Notes under the pieces: model-generated
What the model saw: only the letters and a program-made list of their open reading frames with translations
Databases searched by the model: none
What the model was told of the DNA's origin: nothing
In this document: in pieces, positions 10,278 through 17,751 of the stretch
Layout: each line of letters begins with the position of its first letter
Numbering within the stretch: position 1 is the stretch's first letter
Virus record (IMG/VR): IMGVR_UViG_3300000117_000161
Location: 1 to 22,985 of that record
Strand: one strand, 5' to 3'
DNA from: a virus
Length of the DNA stretch: 22,985 nt
Position numbers and translations under genes: made by a program

Positions 10278-13121
10278 TTACAGTCCTTCAACAACTGGAA
10301 TCCCATCATAGCTTGCTGCATAACCAGTCGAGCCAAATGGAACTTTAATTACAGAAGCTGCAACGCCACTGAAGGCCAGAGCGCCAATTGATGGAGCGGT
10401 ATCTGCGTAAATATTTATTTCCGATAATGAACTGCAGTTTATGAATGCGCCTGCACCAATTAACCCAACGCTAGCGGGAATATCAACTGTTGTTAAGCTA
10501 GTGCAACCACCAAACGCACTACTACCAATGGAGGTCGTACTTGAGGGGAAGGTGAAACTAGCCAAACTAACACAACCGTTAAATATAGAACTACCTACGG
10601 TAATTTGGTCGTCGGGAAAAAGGCAACTAACTAAGCTGGTGCAATTTTCAAACGAAAAACTAGCGATAACATCAACGGTGTCTGGAATAACGACATTTAC
10701 CAAGCTGGTGCAACCAGAAAATGCACCGCCATCAATAATACCAACATTTTTACTTAAAGTAAAGTCCAGTAAACCCGTAGCACCCTTAAACGCTTCAAAG
10801 CCAATTGTGTTGATTTTACTACCAACGTAGATGCTCGTTAAATTAACATTAGCATTATATCCGCTAGAATTATCTAGGACGCTTAAATCTCTAGTTTGAG
10901 CTGCCCCGCTCTGAAAGTCGGTGGTGTATGGGTACTCAGTCTCGGCTGCTGGCACTGGTGCTGGTGCTGGTGCTGCCCACTTCATTCCAGTTGGCTGCGA
11001 GCTGTCAGCGGTGAGGACCTGCGTGTCTAGTCCAATCGCTAGTCGATCAGAGGCATCAGGGCCAGTACTAGCCGCTAAATCTCCCTTGGCATTCCAAATT
11101 GGATCAGTAGCTACTGTTTTTCCATCTGGAACCGTTTTCCACACCATCCCAGTTGGTTCTATGGAACTGGCTGTTAAAACTTGATTGTCCGATCCAATAA
11201 GAACAGTTTCGCAAGCATTTGGGCCAGACGCTGCGATGATATTGCCCTTGGCAGTCCAAATCGGATCGGTAGCTACTGATCCTCCAGCCGCGGATGCTGC
11301 CCATTTCATTCCAGTTGGACTTGCACTATCGACAGTAAGTACCTGTGCATCAGTGCCGATTGCCAGTCGAGAAGATGCATCTGCGGCAGTTCCAGCAACC
11401 AGGTCGCCCTTTGCGTCCCAAACTGGGTCGTTAGCTACAGTGCTAGGTGTTGACCATTTCATTCCAGTGGCTTCTGCGCTATCTGCCGTTAAGACCTGTG
11501 AGTTGGTTCCGACTGCTAGTCGATCGGCAGTATCCAACCCAGTGCCAGCAGCAATGTCACCCTTGGCATCCCAAACTGGATCAGTGGCTACGCCGCCAGC
11601 TCCAGACGGAAGTGTTGTCCACTCCATGCCAGTGGGTTCTGCGCTATTAACTGTTAGGACTTGCAGGTCAGTTCCCAATGGCAATCTTGTTGCTGCGTTT
11701 GGTCCAGTGCCTCCAGCTAAATCGCCCTTTGCGTCCCAGATGGCATCAGTGCTAACATCGCCACCTGCTCCACCATCTGGCACTGACCATGTATTGTCTC
11801 CGCGAAGAAATTTCGTTGCGTCAGGTGTTCCGTTTGCGGAAAGATTTGCAATATCTACTGCCGATGGGGCAATTGTTAGTTCAAGATCTCCCGTAACGTC
11901 GCCAGTGTGAGTGGCGTTTGTAACCTTAGCAGTATTAAGGGCAATGGCAGGTGTATTAAGCGCAATGGCCGCTTGATTCTGAAACACCTGCCCAGTAAGG
12001 ACCCCTATGTCCGTGTCGTTGGAGGCAATGTTTGCTGTATTCGCTGATATTGCAGCGTCTTTGGCTGTTGTAAAGCTTGCGTCAGTTGCGTCAAGGACTG
12101 CGCTATGGGCTTGCACATCTGATCCAATTGCAACGCCCAGATTTGTACGCGCCGTAGATGACGTGGGCGTAAGTTCAGACAAATTGCCTGATATAGAAAG
12201 TGCGTCTGCTGACGAAGTCACCCCGAGGTTTGCCCTAGCTGTCGCTGGATCAACATCACTCAGATTGTTTGCCACAAGGACTGCTTCCGAGTTTGACGGA
12301 ACATTTATATTTGTTCTTGCAGTAGATGCTGTAGCCGTAAGCTCTGATAGATTGTTTGCAATAGCAAGACCTTCCGATGTAGATGGAACCCCAAGGTTTG
12401 CTCGCGCCGCAGCAGTGTCAGTTAAGCCAAGTAAATTGCCAGACTTTAAAAGTGTATCAGATTCAGATGGAACGCCCAAATTTGCGCGAGCTGTAGGCGC
12501 GTCACTTGCTCCAGTGCCACCATCTGTTAACGCTACGTCAGTTCCTCCAGCTACATAACCCCCGCTAGCTGCAATGTTCGTTGCGTCGGTTACGTCAGCC
12601 AATGCTTCAATGCCGTCGAGCTTGGTTTCGTCTGCCGTAGTGAATGATGCTGTCGTTGCATCTAAGGTTGCGCTGTGAGCTTGGACGTCTGTTCCAATTT
12701 TAACACCAAGGTTTGTTCGTGCTGTAGGCGCGTCACCTAGATCACTCAAGTTGGTAGACTTACGAAGGAATAAATCTGATACTACGGGTACTTGCTCGCT
12801 GGTGCTTCCGTCGGCTTGATAGTTTTCAATTAGATCCCAAAGCTCGATGCTTGCTGTTCCAGTGGGAATGATTACGCTCTCAGCCTTTGAGCCGTCCACT
12901 GTAATCTCAAGGACGCTTGTCTTGCCGCTGTCGCCGTTGTTCCATACGTCAATCGAGAAGTCGCCGTTAGCATCCGTCTGAACCGAGTCAACGCTCTGTG
13001 CCACTGTTGCCGTTGCTCCAGAGTCTGTGCCGAGCTGAACTAGGCGGAAGGTGATCCACTTGTTTGCGAGGGCTGTGTTGTTTACCCCGTTAATTGTCCC
13101 TGTGATTGTAGTAGTAGCCAT
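10278..13121 (-). CDS. Long tail fibre with BspA-like leucine-rich repeats, 947 aa
   Basis: A modular phage fibre. Residues 1-115 form a beta-sandwich-like N-terminal domain, likely the virion anchor. Residues about 120-330 hold repeated ARTNLGV or ARANLGV motifs, common in trimeric phage fibres. Residues about 400-450 include HTGDVTG and KFLRGDNTW, also fibre motifs. Residues about 457-717 are five copies of a repeat of about 52 residues with DPVWDAKGDL, RLAIGTD.QVLTADS and PTGMKW. A Pro/Ala linker (716-726) leads to residues about 766-920, a run of BspA/LRR_5-type repeats (IG..AF.GCTSL..V.IP). That C-terminal domain is probably the host-binding tip. The start follows the hydrolase stop as TAATAATG. 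Its size and architecture make a structural fibre role secure; the receptor is unknown. Confidence 0.86.
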   Translation of the reverse strand: MATTTITGTINGVNNTALANKWITFRLVQLGTDSGATATVAQSVDSVQTDANGDFSIDVWNNGDSGKTSVLEITVDGSKAESVIIPTGTASIELWDLIENYQADGSTSEQVPVVSDLFLRKSTNLSDLGDAPTARTNLGVKIGTDVQAHSATLDATTASFTTADETKLDGIEALADVTDATNIAASGGYVAGGTDVALTDGGTGASDAPTARANLGVPSESDTLLKSGNLLGLTDTAAARANLGVPSTSEGLAIANNLSELTATASTARTNINVPSNSEAVLVANNLSDVDPATARANLGVTSSADALSISGNLSELTPTSSTARTNLGVAIGSDVQAHSAVLDATDASFTTAKDAAISANTANIASNDTDIGVLTGQVFQNQAAIALNTPAIALNTAKVTNATHTGDVTGDLELTIAPSAVDIANLSANGTPDATKFLRGDNTWSVPDGGAGGDVSTDAIWDAKGDLAGGTGPNAATRLPLGTDLQVLTVNSAEPTGMEWTTLPSGAGGVATDPVWDAKGDIAAGTGLDTADRLAVGTNSQVLTADSAEATGMKWSTPSTVANDPVWDAKGDLVAGTAADASSRLAIGTDAQVLTVDSASPTGMKWAASAAGGSVATDPIWTAKGNIIAASGPNACETVLIGSDNQVLTASSIEPTGMVWKTVPDGKTVATDPIWNAKGDLAASTGPDASDRLAIGLDTQVLTADSSQPTGMKWAAPAPAPVPAAETEYPYTTDFQSGAAQTRDLSVLDNSSGYNANVNLTSIYVGSKINTIGFEAFKGATGLLDFTLSKNVGIIDGGAFSGCTSLVNVVIPDTVDVIASFSFENCTSLVSCLFPDDQITVGSSIFNGCVSLASFTFPSSTTSIGSSAFGGCTSLTTVDIPASVGLIGAGAFINCSSLSEINIYADTAPSIGALAFSGVAASVIKVPFGSTGYAASYDGIPVVEGL
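10347..10826 (-). repeat. BspA-like leucine-rich repeat block
   Basis: About six repeats of some 23 residues encode fibre residues 766-925, with the pattern F.GC.SL..V..P..V..I...AF. This is the LRR_5 / BspA signature, found mostly in bacterial and protist surface proteins. It forms the C-terminal end of the fibre. Confidence 0.85.
10971..11753 (-). repeat. Five WDAKGDL-type fibre repeats
   Basis: Five tandem coding repeats of roughly 156 bp encode residues 457-717 of the fibre. Shared elements are WDAKGDLAAGTGPDA, RLAIGTD, QVLTADS and TGMKW. Repeat 4 is the most diverged (WTAKGNIIAASGPNACETVL). Confidence 0.88.
12135..12722 (-). repeat. ARTNLGV-type fibre repeats
   Basis: Six imperfect repeats encode residues about 134-329 of the fibre, each with ARTNLGV, ARANLGV or ARTNINV and often with NLSEL or NLSDV ahead of it. 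This is the usual shaft repeat of trimeric phage fibres. Confidence 0.85.
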
Positions 13122-13123
13122 TA

Positions 13124-13660
13124 TTAAGTTTGTAAATATGTTTTAGCAGCTAGAACCGCTGCCTTGTGATACTCTGGTGAATCGTCTATTTCCGCGTGGT
13201 CGTAGTCATATGTTCGCTCTCGGCAAATTGATTTACCGCCAACCAGCTTGTCGCCATCTAAGCGATCTCCTCGTTGGGACACCCATCCCACTACCTTAAC
13301 ATTCTTGTCAAGTTTGATCTTCCTGTCGAACAATGCCCACCATCTGCCTAGGATTGTTGGACTATGATAGACAGGATCGCAAGCAACCACGCTCACGTCG
13401 CACTCAAGGCGTTTCGATAGCTGGGGCATACCATACCCCCCTCCCCAGCTATAACAGCATATAAGGACTTCTGTGGGCTTTAGGCTGTTGATGTATTTAG
13501 CATACTTCTTCCAGTCTGAGTTCCATTCCTTTAGCTGAACCATGGCGTGTTCGCCCTCGCAGATGTCATCAAGTAACCGAAGCTCGCGCCACAATTGCTT
13601 GGAACCAGTGTTTTGGTGGTTCTTTTGGGTGAAACCGCTGATAACTACAATAATTTTCAT
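13124..13660 (-). CDS. Alpha/beta-hydrolase-like esterase, 178 aa
   Basis: This is a short alpha/beta-hydrolase-fold protein. It opens with a beta strand (IIVVISGF), has a nucleophile elbow at CYSWGGG (Ser71), an acidic candidate in ACDPVY (Asp95), and a C-terminal His in DYDHAEIDD (His155), in the right order for a Ser-Asp-His triad. No signal peptide or membrane segment is seen. At 178 residues it is near the lower end for the fold and lacks room for a large lid. It starts at TAATG, overlapping the stop of a lipoprotein gene, and follows single-TM and lipoprotein genes. That placement is compatible with a lysis role on outer-layer esters, as phage LysB-type esterases act in other hosts, or with removal of acyl groups from a surface polymer. 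The function is inferred. Confidence 0.68.
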   Translation of the reverse strand: MKIIVVISGFTQKNHQNTGSKQLWRELRLLDDICEGEHAMVQLKEWNSDWKKYAKYINSLKPTEVLICCYSWGGGYGMPQLSKRLECDVSVVACDPVYHSPTILGRWWALFDRKIKLDKNVKVVGWVSQRGDRLDGDKLVGGKSICRERTYDYDHAEIDDSPEYHKAAVLAAKTYLQT

Positions 13661-13803
13661 TATGGGAGTAGGGGGACGTCTAGGTCTGCGTCAACCGACT
13701 TTTCGATGGCATTGCCAGCACCAGAGGGTGAATAAAGATATACGTCGCCCTTGTAGGCGCAACCAGATAGGATTAGTGTTGATGCGAGTATTAGCTTTTT
13801 CAT
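13660..13803 (-). CDS. Small lipoprotein (o-spanin-like), 47 aa
   Basis: This 47-residue lipoprotein was found by reading the gap between two genes. A basic N-terminus (MKK), a hydrophobic core and the lipobox LSGC put the lipidated Cys at residue 15. The mature part is about 33 residues and ends in a Pro/Leu tail (DVPLLP). Its ATG overlaps the stop of the upstream single-TM gene (ATGA) and its stop overlaps the hydrolase start (TAATG), so all three are coupled. A tiny outer-membrane lipoprotein next to a single-TM coiled-coil protein is the layout of Rz/Rz1-type spanins. Spanin function is plausible but unproven; the lipoprotein is not embedded in the partner's reading frame. Confidence 0.75.
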   Translation of the reverse strand: MKKLILASTLILSGCAYKGDVYLYSPSGAGNAIEKSVDADLDVPLLP

Positions 13804-14009
13804 TGATTTGTGTTCCTGTGTACTACGTCTAAGACTTTGTTTGAGAGTTCTTCGATCCCCTGTTGCCTACCTCTTAGCTCCCCGAGTTCTGAAGCCATTT
13901 TAGTGTGATCCTTGTTGAGCGACATTACCGTCCTAAATAAGAAGGCAATCGCCGTGGTCATCGCCGCCGCAGCACCTACTACTAGGTTAATAAATGTTGC
14001 TGTGTCCAT
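13800..14009 (-). CDS. Single-TM coiled-coil protein (spanin/holin-like), 69 aa
   Basis: This 69-residue protein has one N-terminal membrane helix (about residues 8-28, LVVGAAAAMTTAIAFLF) followed by a charged helical tail (KMASELGELRGRQQGIEELS) that should form a coiled coil. This matches an inner-membrane spanin subunit, though it is short, and holins of similar size exist. It sits in a coupled row with a lipoprotein gene and a hydrolase gene, which supports a lysis cassette. Its ATG follows the stop of the four-TM gene by 4 nt. No endolysin is recognisable near it. Confidence 0.68.
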   Translation of the reverse strand: MDTATFINLVVGAAAAMTTAIAFLFRTVMSLNKDHTKMASELGELRGRQQGIEELSNKVLDVVHRNTNQ

Positions 14010-14013
14010 AGAA

Positions 14014-14457
14014 CTAGACCGACTTGATGCTTATTAATGTAACATATAAGATTCCAATTAAATATGAAAAGACTATTAGCTTGTTGACAAATATGATGCC
14101 CTTAACTGAGGACATCTCTGCTGCCTTAATGTGACACCAAGCCGCAAAAATACCAAGCCCCTGCCGAAAGATTACGTTAAAGTAGACTCCAATTAAGGTG
14201 AGATTCCGAAATGCTTCCGATTCGCCCATAAAAGATGCCGACCAAGGCAAGAACCAGTACAGATTGTCCATTGCTGCACCAATAAATCCACCCACCACGC
14301 CAAGTATGAACCATTGGTTTGCGCTTCTATCTTTGTCTTTTGCTGCAACGCAAGCCGCTGGCATCCACAGATATATAACCGCGAAAGCCAAGATAACCGT
14401 CGGGATGGTCATTACCAAAGAAAGCATCTCAGCTAAATAATGTATGTTTAAGTCCAT
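14014..14457 (-). CDS. Four-helix membrane protein, 147 aa
   Basis: A small polytopic membrane protein has four hydrophobic segments at about residues 10-32, 48-70, 84-108 and 120-143. The loop between helices 1 and 2 is charged (AAKDKDRSANQ). I do not recognise the family. Its location just ahead of the spanin-like and lipoprotein genes makes a holin or lysis-timing role possible, but four TM segments is more than most holins have. The ATG comes 2 nt after the TAA of a serine-protease-like remnant, so it may be translated by reinitiation from that remnant. Confidence 0.66.
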   Translation of the reverse strand: MDLNIHYLAEMLSLVMTIPTVILAFAVIYLWMPAACVAAKDKDRSANQWFILGVVGGFIGAAMDNLYWFLPWSASFMGESEAFRNLTLIGVYFNVIFRQGLGIFAAWCHIKAAEMSSVKGIIFVNKLIVFSYLIGILYVTLISIKSV

Positions 14458-14459
14458 AG

Positions 14460-14690
14460 TTAATAGGTTGTGTATGACGAAAGGTCTCCAACTGTGACGG
14501 TGTGTCCAGTGATGTCGCCTTGAAGTGTGTCGAGGGTGGTGATCATTGCGTTAAGCTCTGTGACTAGACCGCCGTAGAACGGGCCAGTGTTAGCACCAAA
14601 GAACGTAGATAATAACCACAGCTCAGATCCGATGACGCCAAAGACTGGGTTGCCAGAGTCTCCGACTATGATTGGGTCGTAGAATGCTAG
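14460..14690 (-). pseudogene. 3' remnant of a trypsin-like serine protease domain
   Basis: The minus strand from 14690 down to the TAA at 14460-14462 encodes 76 residues beginning LAFYDPIIVGDSGNPVFGVI. GDSGNP is the catalytic-Ser motif of trypsin-fold proteases, and the closing VTVGDLSSY resembles the ends of protease-like domains I know from phage tail proteins. The frame is open only back to a TGA at 14721-14723. There is no ATG, GTG or TTG before residue 49 of this stretch, and the His and Asp of the triad are missing. The frame overlaps the end of the 43-aa ORF in a different frame. I read it as a decapitated gene. Expression by frameshifting from the 43-aa ORF, inside the 34-nt overlap, would be the alternative. 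Confidence 0.7.
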
Positions 14691-14818
14691 GCGGTGCGGT
14701 ATTGTCGAGCAATCATACGCTCAAAGAGACGAGCCTGATTGTCGGCCTGTGCCGCAATCATTTTCATTACGAAGCCACTTACGCCCCCGCCTAGCATTGC
14801 TAATAGTTCTGGTGTCAT
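14687..14818 (-). CDS. Very short protein, 43 aa, possibly truncated
   Basis: This 43-residue ORF starts MTPELLAMLGGGVSGFVMKM and ends RQYRTA. The start follows the stop of the preceding small gene as TAATATG, the same coupling used across the operon. The N-terminal part resembles the start of longer phage proteins that continue into membrane helices after an amphipathic helix ending near ARLFERMIARQ. Here the frame stops at 43 residues, exactly where the serine-protease remnant begins in another frame. It therefore looks like the 5' piece of a gene cut by a deletion. It could still be translated. Confidence 0.6.
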   Translation of the reverse strand: MTPELLAMLGGGVSGFVMKMIAAQADNQARLFERMIARQYRTA

Positions 14819-14819
14819 A

Positions 14820-14987
14820 TTAATCCTTATTTATAAGTTCTTTGATTACCTTGACTGTTGATGCAGTCATATAAATTAATGTAGCAAAACCCACAGCCAT
14901 ACCTAATGGATTATCATAACCAAGTTCAAGGGTAGCAATAAAGCCTCCTGTGCCTATGGTTGATTTGTAAATAATGTCGTGCATCAT
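14820..14987 (-). CDS. Small membrane protein, 55 aa
   Basis: This 55-residue ORF overlaps the stop of the 107-aa gene: ATG at 14985-14987 and TGA at 14984-14986. It has a moderately hydrophobic stretch at about residues 11-22 and a better one at about 29-46 (GMAVGFATLIYMTASTV), then a short charged tail (KVIKELINKD). One or two membrane passes are likely. Small proteins of this kind occur near phage tail and lysis genes and may be holin-like, but no specific family is recognised. Coupled start and stop on both sides support that it is real. Confidence 0.68.
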   Translation of the reverse strand: MMHDIIYKSTIGTGGFIATLELGYDNPLGMAVGFATLIYMTASTVKVIKELINKD

Positions 14988-15307
14988 ACTTCCTCTTCTG
15001 GGTCAGGGTCAGGTGGTAGCAGTGCTAGGAATGCAGCCTTGTCTACGACTTCGCATTCTTCTAGTTTAGCTTGGTCAAGCATCTCCCACAGTTCGTGGTA
15101 GATACCGCCTACGCCGACCTCTGTGTAAAGGTCACAGCAAGCACCGTAGCGTCCGTCAATCAACAGCACTGGGCTGATGTGATTGCTAGTAGTCAAGGTG
15201 TCCTGCTTTGCGATCATTGAGTCCCGCGGTTCTGCTGGAATCAGAAGATAGTTAAAGTTGTGTTCTTCAGCCGTAGGATTAGTAGCTAGGTATTCTGATA
15301 AGTTCAT
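14984..15307 (-). CDS. Hypothetical protein, 107 aa, downstream of tailspike
   Basis: I do not recognise this 107-aa acidic protein. It is predicted soluble and of mixed alpha/beta character, with four cysteines, two adjacent (GACCD), and it ends in an acidic Pro-rich tail (DPDPEEEV). Its start follows the tailspike stop as TAATTATG, so the two are translationally coupled. A chaperone or assembly protein for the spike is a reasonable guess, because such small genes often follow the fibre they fold. There is no direct evidence for this. Confidence 0.62.
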   Translation of the reverse strand: MNLSEYLATNPTAEEHNFNYLLIPAEPRDSMIAKQDTLTTSNHISPVLLIDGRYGACCDLYTEVGVGGIYHELWEMLDQAKLEECEVVDKAAFLALLPPDPDPEEEV

Positions 15308-15309
15308 AA

Positions 15310-17751
15310 TTAGATTGCTGCGATTTCTGTGATTAAGGTGTCTTGCAAGCCTTCTAGGGTAGCGAGGTCAAGCGCAGGGCCGTAGTGATAAGTAGCAATA
15401 CGGGATGCGTTTTTAGAGTTGCCCGTACCCCACGCAAATACACTAACGCCAGTTCCAGTTGGAGCAATTGAGGCTTTTAAGGCAGTGCCGCTGGTAGTGT
15501 TGACTAAATATTCATACTCAGTGCCGACAGTTCTGGTCTGGCCAATGAAATTTGCAGCAGTATCGGGGCTGACATTAATCTGAGACGAACTATTGTTGTT
15601 GGTCGAAAATTTAACTACGTTATTTGTAGAACCTGACCTATGGGCAATACGTGGTGAACCCATCCAGTAAGCATTATCAAGGTAAACAGGATCAGTAACC
15701 CACGAACTCATTGAGTAATCGTTCTGAGCAGTTGCGTTATCCAATACTCCAGTAGAGATATACTTGGTCGAGGCATCACCTTTCAGACCAGTCAACTGAT
15801 CCAAGTCAGCTGCAACAAAGTTGTTGTTGGTCAGCGTCGGCATTCCATCACGAAGAGGAACCGTAACACCTTGAATACCTACACCTACGAATGATGCGGC
15901 AGATTCCATCGTATCCCAGTAGGCTCCGCCTAATGCGACTAAGCTGTCGATGTAGTTAGCTAGTGGCTGCTTGTAAGCTGTATAGGTTGTATCACCTGCG
16001 CTATTTAATCGGTTAAAGTAATTCTGGGCTTCCTCTGAAAATTCTTGAGGAGAATTTAAGCTCAAGAGTTCAGCGTTTGAAATTGTAACGGACGCAACAT
16101 CTACTGACTTTAATAAAGCAGAACTTCCAACTGTCTCACCGTATCGACCCCCGATTGCATTGGTGCTTTGAGGCTGAAATCCAGTGTGAGTATATTTGAC
16201 AATCTTATACGGTGAGTAGTTTGGATTCCTTGCAATCATTTGAGTAATTGCATTTGCTACTGTCCCGTTGCCACCGTTAAGAGTATCAAACGTCTTAATA
16301 TCTCTGGATCTATCGGTAAATGATGGATCTAATGTAAAATCATTTGGAGCAACTCCGCCAGTCTGGACAACTGAATCGTCGTAGATAATTGCTTGGCCAC
16401 CAGTTGGTGCGCTCCAACCCATATTGTAATCAAGGTAAGTAAGTTGATCTGGTGTTGAGGTAACTAGGTCAACGGCTGGATCAGTTATAGGGTCTGTATC
16501 ATCTGGATCAAAGTACAGGCTTGAGTACAACTGAACATCCATTGATGACACATCTGTTGCCGCTTGCTCGGTCATAAACCAGTAAGGAAAATACTGACCG
16601 CCACTTACGTCGCCATCACTGTCCACCATACTTGTATTATTGCGCATAATAATTGTTCCGAGTTGAGTTGCTACAGTTTGAACAACTGCGTTACCCTTTC
16701 CCAAGAACAGATTGTGAGCAATATTCATAGAGCCAGTTGCACCAGCTGCGCCATTAATAAACCAATTTACACCAACCGTGCCATCTTTATTGTCAAATAC
16801 GTTTCCGATGTAATTAAATTGACTAGAAACACTTGGACTAAATGCGTGATTACCTTGTTCGTAATAAACATAGTTCCCATAAAAGTTTCGATAATAATGT
16901 GCGCTATTAAAGATTGGCGATTCGTATTTTGTGTTAGAAAAGAAGTTGAATCGATAAGTATCTGTCGATACACTTAGAGGTGCTTCAATTAGAACGTCAT
17001 TAAAAACATTATGCTCATAAATTGCTCCAGCAGTTTTAAACTCAACTGCACCCTGAACAGCGTTCATTGAATTGTCAAAAGTGCAATGCCTTAGCACCCT
17101 TGGTGCGGTGGAAGTTAATGCACTTTGATATATGCCAGGCTGAAAGTCATCTGCTGGTTGAGCTGTTGGAGACCTCCAGTCCGAGAAGTCACAGTATTCA
17201 ACAATAAATCCAGCGTTTGCGGCCACCCCAGTTCTATCTAAGTAAAAAGCAGCACAATTTGTAACCGTTGAATATCGCATTATAACGGTTAAATTAGAAG
17301 TCTGTGTCCGACCTAGCTGGCTGTCAATTAGATCACTAAAATCACAGTATTCAATGTGCGGAAGTAATGCTTTAACTCCAGCAGCAGCAAAGAATCCACC
17401 ATTACCAATAACTGTTGCCCTGCTTACTGCTGTCCCAATAAAGTTGTAGGAACCAATACCAGATCCACTCGGTGTAATTGTTTGCCCACCAAGGTCAAGT
17501 GTGCCACCTGCACCAATTGCTAATGTGTATGCTCCAACCAGAGAAACAGCGGCAGACAACGTAAGCGTTCCGTTGATCTGTAGTGTATCTGCGTTAAGCG
17601 TAATTGCACCGCACGTAATACTTTGACCGCTTTGAAGCGTTACAGTATGCCCTATGGTTGCTGTATCTGCGCTTGATGATGGAAAACCACCGCCACCCCA
17701 CGTTGCTGCGTCTGTCCAGTTACCTGCCTGTGTTGTTGTATAATCGGCCAT
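15310..17751 (-). CDS. Beta-helix tailspike-like protein, 813 aa
   Basis: A large adhesin. Residues 1-100 (TTTQAGNWTDAATWGGGGFP, then a series of short Gly-rich strands) look like a G8-type beta domain. Residues about 100-560 are rich in short beta strands with Asn and aromatic stacks (YCDFSD, RYSTVTN, HNVFNDV, YIGNVFDN), as in right-handed parallel beta-helices of phage tailspikes. Residues about 578-813 form a C-terminal domain beginning YFNRLNSAGDTTYTAYKQPL and containing GGAYWDTMESAASFVGV, a motif that I recall from other phage structural proteins and that leads into a LamG-like fold. No lyase or hydrolase active site can be assigned by eye. It likely binds, and perhaps cleaves, a surface polysaccharide. 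It starts one nt after the LamG-like gene (TAATATG). Confidence 0.8.
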   Translation of the reverse strand: MADYTTTQAGNWTDAATWGGGGFPSSSADTATIGHTVTLQSGQSITCGAITLNADTLQINGTLTLSAAVSLVGAYTLAIGAGGTLDLGGQTITPSGSGIGSYNFIGTAVSRATVIGNGGFFAAAGVKALLPHIEYCDFSDLIDSQLGRTQTSNLTVIMRYSTVTNCAAFYLDRTGVAANAGFIVEYCDFSDWRSPTAQPADDFQPGIYQSALTSTAPRVLRHCTFDNSMNAVQGAVEFKTAGAIYEHNVFNDVLIEAPLSVSTDTYRFNFFSNTKYESPIFNSAHYYRNFYGNYVYYEQGNHAFSPSVSSQFNYIGNVFDNKDGTVGVNWFINGAAGATGSMNIAHNLFLGKGNAVVQTVATQLGTIIMRNNTSMVDSDGDVSGGQYFPYWFMTEQAATDVSSMDVQLYSSLYFDPDDTDPITDPAVDLVTSTPDQLTYLDYNMGWSAPTGGQAIIYDDSVVQTGGVAPNDFTLDPSFTDRSRDIKTFDTLNGGNGTVANAITQMIARNPNYSPYKIVKYTHTGFQPQSTNAIGGRYGETVGSSALLKSVDVASVTISNAELLSLNSPQEFSEEAQNYFNRLNSAGDTTYTAYKQPLANYIDSLVALGGAYWDTMESAASFVGVGIQGVTVPLRDGMPTLTNNNFVAADLDQLTGLKGDASTKYISTGVLDNATAQNDYSMSSWVTDPVYLDNAYWMGSPRIAHRSGSTNNVVKFSTNNNSSSQINVSPDTAANFIGQTRTVGTEYEYLVNTTSGTALKASIAPTGTGVSVFAWGTGNSKNASRIATYHYGPALDLATLEGLQDTLITEIAAI

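Follow-up and report, generated by a model that had tools for sequence, protein, structure and literature searches.

A probable recombination scar joining remnants of a membrane-protein gene and a protease gene in a marine phage

Two truncated genes in overlapping frames

The DNA analysed here (the window, 22,985 nucleotides) is part of a 29,345-base IMG/VR virus record (IMGVR_UViG_3300000117_000161), and belongs to a marine phage whose relatives include Verrucomicrobia phages. Two short frames lie on the minus strand between 14460 and 14818, and the original prediction described them correctly with respect to coordinates, a 34-nt overlap and the lack of a start in the frame encoding GDSGNP. 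One runs from 14818 to 14687 and comprises 43 codons (MTPELLAMLGGGVSGFVMKMIAAQADNQARLFERMIARQYRTA) followed by a TAG at 14689-14687. The other lies in the -1 frame relative to the first and is open from 14720 to a TAA at 14462-14460 (86 codons, GDSGNP among them); no ATG, GTG or TTG occurs in it ahead of Met59 (about 14546). The arrangement is not a chance one, since close homologues of both halves are found in many viral contigs and since the identity to either parent breaks off sharply within one and the same stretch of 5-6 bp.

Over its first 39 residues the 43-aa ORF agrees at every position with the N-terminus of p131, a 131-aa membrane protein encoded in contig L010. The ORF had been taken for the start of a longer membrane-protein gene, and it is indeed the N-terminal third of p131. 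A scan of viral contigs for p131 yielded 329 relatives among the candidates, 80 of which were kept, and the gene is intact in about 80 viral contigs, e.g. directly after the gene g55 in L009-L012. Homologues are also present in the Verrucomicrobia phage P8625 (P8625_28) and in an Opitutae MAG, and p131 matches phrog_38283, a family of unknown function. Judged by hydropathy, the fragment has kept a weak hydrophobic segment (residues 5-23) and lost the main transmembrane segment (60-78). Compared with the L010 codons it shows five synonymous and no non-synonymous differences.

The second frame is the end of a protease gene. Scanning viral contigs with the 86-aa frame identified 24 loci, at 13 of which (L002-L014) the frame is open further upstream as part of an intact gene encoding about 410-420 aa. 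Residues H213, D256 and S346 (L005 numbering) are invariant in all 19 aligned protease sequences. The intact L005 protein was modelled with AlphaFold2 (mean pLDDT 86), and Foldseek matched the model to trypsin and chymotrypsin; the VIA-align superposition (Z 16.4, 187 residues, 3.2 A) covers residues 155-387, ahead of which lies a beta-sandwich domain. The model thus suggests that the intact L005-type protein is a putative phage serine protease of the chymotrypsin fold, which shares the fold and the invariant His, Asp and Ser with the S1 enzymes of PDB entries 4q2k and 1chg. Unlike these enzymes, the remnant in the window has kept the Ser alone (Ser346, in GDSGNP), so that it does not unite His, Asp and Ser in one chain as a working enzyme of this fold would; His213, Asp256, the first barrel and the N-terminal Big_2-like domain are missing, and of the second barrel only the final third is left. 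The tail had been read as a protease C-terminus without start, His or Asp, which is borne out by the position of H213 and D256 of the intact homologues in the lost part. Unique to the remnant are three non-synonymous changes and one synonymous change, too few to show relaxed selection.

Pfam and PHROGs did not recognise the intact family as a protease, a tblastn search with the tail in named phages gave no match, and among named phages the intact protein has one weak match only (23%). The family found at L005 4026-5258 and in the remaining L002-L014 contigs, with a Big_2-like N-terminus followed by the chymotrypsin-fold domain and located beside fibre genes, may therefore represent unrecognised phage proteases, as judged from the modelled fold. 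In contigs L020-L022 two protease-like domains lie within one ORF, and L008 (172-6143) carries three protease genes in tandem, with 78%, 27% and 27% identity to the L009 protein.

Table 1. Features at and around the junction in the window (types A and C are the gene orders described in the text)
Feature	Position	Strand	Description
g69, g47 (lipoprotein-like), g178 (alpha/beta-hydrolase-like)	13124..14009	minus	intact; type A cassette
gene147	14014..14457	minus	147-aa membrane protein; type A side
Protease, last 81 codons and stop	14460..14707	minus	residues 330-410 of the L005 homologue
43-aa ORF	14687..14818	minus	p131 N-terminus, 4 out-of-frame residues (YRTA) and TAG
Junction CGACA(A)	14702..14707	minus	short string common to both parents
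p131, first 38-39 codons	14703..14818	minus	39/39 aa identical to L010
g55	14820..14987	minus	small membrane protein, intact, upstream of p131; type C side
g107	14984..15307	minus	intact; 87-93% to type C vs 62-81% to type A

The breakpoint and the gene orders that meet there

Aligning both halves to full-length relatives, as had been proposed, identified relatives for each and placed the breakpoint at 14702-14707. In ungapped alignments the identity to the p131 gene runs through the CG at 14707-14706, resumes for the CA at 14704-14703 and ends at 14702-14703; the identity to the protease gene begins with CGACAATACC at 14707 and continues onward. The string shared by the parents is CG for L010 and L005, CGACA if L096 stands in for the p131 parent, and CGACAA if L053 does. 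If the L010 and L005 genes were broken at random positions, at least 2 bp would be shared in 15% and at least 5 bp in 0.4% of the cases, and the role of microhomology at the joint thus depends on which exact parent took part.

The related phages could be divided by gene order. Type C contigs have g813-g107-g55-p131, followed by g947 (L029 and L044) or by p81-p925 (the others). In type A (L002, L004, L005 and L014) the order is g813-g107-fibre-protease-gene147-g69-g47-g178-g947, and L006 agrees with it up to gene147. Type B (L009-L012) has fibre-protease-g55-p131. The type A and type C cassettes occupy one site, with g107 on its upstream and g947 on its downstream side. Read along the minus strand, the window follows type C before the joint (g107-g55-p131) and type A after it (protease-gene147-g69-g47-g178-g947). 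Contiguous matches extend accordingly, on the type C side with L029 over 14703-15381 (90%) and with L052 over 14703-16000, and on the type A side with L005 over 12705-14707 (82%). Two unrelated parental sequences therefore meet at a single point with little homology there, and both parental orders, type A and type C, are intact in related phages.

The boundary between g107 and g55 is the normal type C one, as in L029, and the type C contigs, in which g107, g55 and p131 have the same order, show 67-93% amino acid identity in g55. Gene147 starts 2 nt past the stop of the protease remnant and is 66-70% identical to its counterparts in L002, L004, L005, L006, L014 and L023, where the gene order is alike. 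A scan for gene147 with the window's own sequence gave no match, the gene being too diverged for 8-residue patterns; neither gene147 nor g55 was recognised by Pfam or PHROGs. p131 is absent from the type A records and gene147 from those of types B and C, and the two were found together neither in the records searched nor in any of the about 100 loci fetched. Within 13124-14457, g69 combines a membrane segment with a coiled coil and g47 is lipoprotein-like; gene147, g69, g47 and g178 together resemble a lysis cassette, whose place is taken by g55-p131 in some relatives.

Origin of the junction

The locus is very probably the product of one illegitimate crossover between alternative cassettes of related phages, which left two dead gene ends. 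In the ancestor of the window, type C phage DNA would have broken at codon 38-39 of p131, and the broken end would have met codon 330 of a type A protease gene, at a point where the parents shared 2-6 bp. A single such event accounts for the whole arrangement, since the window is of type C before the joint and of type A after it and since p131 and gene147 are mutually exclusive in the records searched. The product would keep complete genes on both sides, gene147 included. As gene147 replaces p131 in the type A phages, the loss of p131 and of the protease may well be tolerable. The p131 remnant would persist as the 43-codon ORF, stopping four codons beyond the joint, and the protease remnant as an untranslated or barely translated 3' end that now forms the leader to gene147. 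The absence of non-synonymous p131 differences from L010 and the few changes in the tail fit a recent event, and neither of them proves decay.

The original prediction had proposed a deletion joining two genes. Its fusion of the 5' end of one gene to the 3' end of another stands, whereas a simple deletion within one genome fits less well than a crossover, because the flanks belong to two lineages whose cassettes replace each other at one site. Such a deletion, in a genome with g107-g55-p131 and fibre-protease-gene147 in tandem, would have removed the 3' part of p131, the fibre gene and the 5' part of the protease gene, and would have yielded an identical sequence; it is a variant of the crossover, with the same scar and other parentage. 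Tandem copies do occur, of the protease gene in L008 and of p131 in L091, but the mutual exclusion of p131 and gene147 in the record searches and in the fetched loci makes this parentage unlikely, and we infer a crossover. An assembly or library chimera of two co-occurring phages is still less probable. Metagenomes 3300025594, 3300025641 and 3300025821 do contain contigs of both type A and type C, and a degenerate 27-mer search of the viral contigs found the joint in no second contig, although near-identical records may be absent from the scanned set. However, k-mer assemblers should not be misled by 5-6 shared bases, a stretch far under any assembler k-mer, so that some reads must span the joint; moreover, similar remnants occur in L023 and L091. 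Most likely the scar is real and recent, and holds two gene remnants.

The two frames might also have been kept for a function, e.g. if the 43-aa piece inhibited the holin or if gene147 needed the protease 3' end as a leader for its translation. The distance of 2 nt between the protease stop and the gene147 start would agree with this, as would the last 21 protease codons that L023 holds ahead of gene147, but 66 nt suffice in L023, the two-frame unit is conserved nowhere else and the tail has no start codon ahead of Met59, and we regard retention as very improbable. Less credible again is a scar turned regulatory unit, in which the 43-aa piece, bearing the first hydrophobic segment of p131, regulates lysis and the protease 3' end leads gene147. 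A programmed -1 frameshift giving a fusion of the p131 N-terminus and the protease tail, which had been offered as the alternative, has practically no chance of being correct. The tail does lie in the -1 frame with an overlap of 34 nt, but the ORF contains no slippery heptamer (X XXY YYZ), the longest homopolymer in the overlap is 2, and a G5 run upstream is of no use, as the -1 frame opens only at 14720. The fusion would also miss two of the three catalytic residues, and the protease gene is intact in 13 close relatives; relatives carrying the same two short frames were looked for, and none was found among the viral contigs scanned. We infer that the remnants are without function, and nothing suggests that the joint encodes a fusion that works.

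Phage mosaicism and other remnants

In the model of illegitimate recombination in mosaic tailed phages, as outlined in PMC3233612 with reference to Hendrix 1999 and Pedulla 2003, ancestry changes abruptly at a joint, the sequences that meet share little, and related phages exchange modules at one site; the same is seen in the window. The difference is that the joint in the window lies inside two genes and its edges have not been cleaned to gene boundaries, which makes the event look young. Homeologous (Red-type) recombination, according to the account in PMC2327257, likewise joins diverged phage genomes and needs related stretches at the crossover, whereas the joint in the window shares 2-6 bp only. 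Most likely the joint is one of the ordinary scars that mosaicism leaves in phage genomes, a kind that has been described for a long time (in outline in PMC3233612 and PMC2327257). It provides a base-resolved example of a module swap before selection tidies the edges, in which both parental orders are known and the leftovers of both genes are still readable. A caution follows for annotation, in that such short frames should not be annotated as genes or frameshift fusions.

Scars at p131 and protease genes recur among the contigs, yet they are not conserved as a unit. A dedicated scan for more protease 3'-end remnants returned already known contigs only. The 21 protease codons in L023 lie between the fibre gene and gene147 and form an independent remnant. 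In L091 (2101-3351) p131 is cut after about 30 codons and is followed by a 181-aa ORF, a 54-aa ORF and an intact p131, a truncation independent of the break in the window. Finally, a T4-like contig (L016, 1073-1156) has preserved 28 codons from the 3' end of the protease gene, which follow a cluster of four tRNAs.
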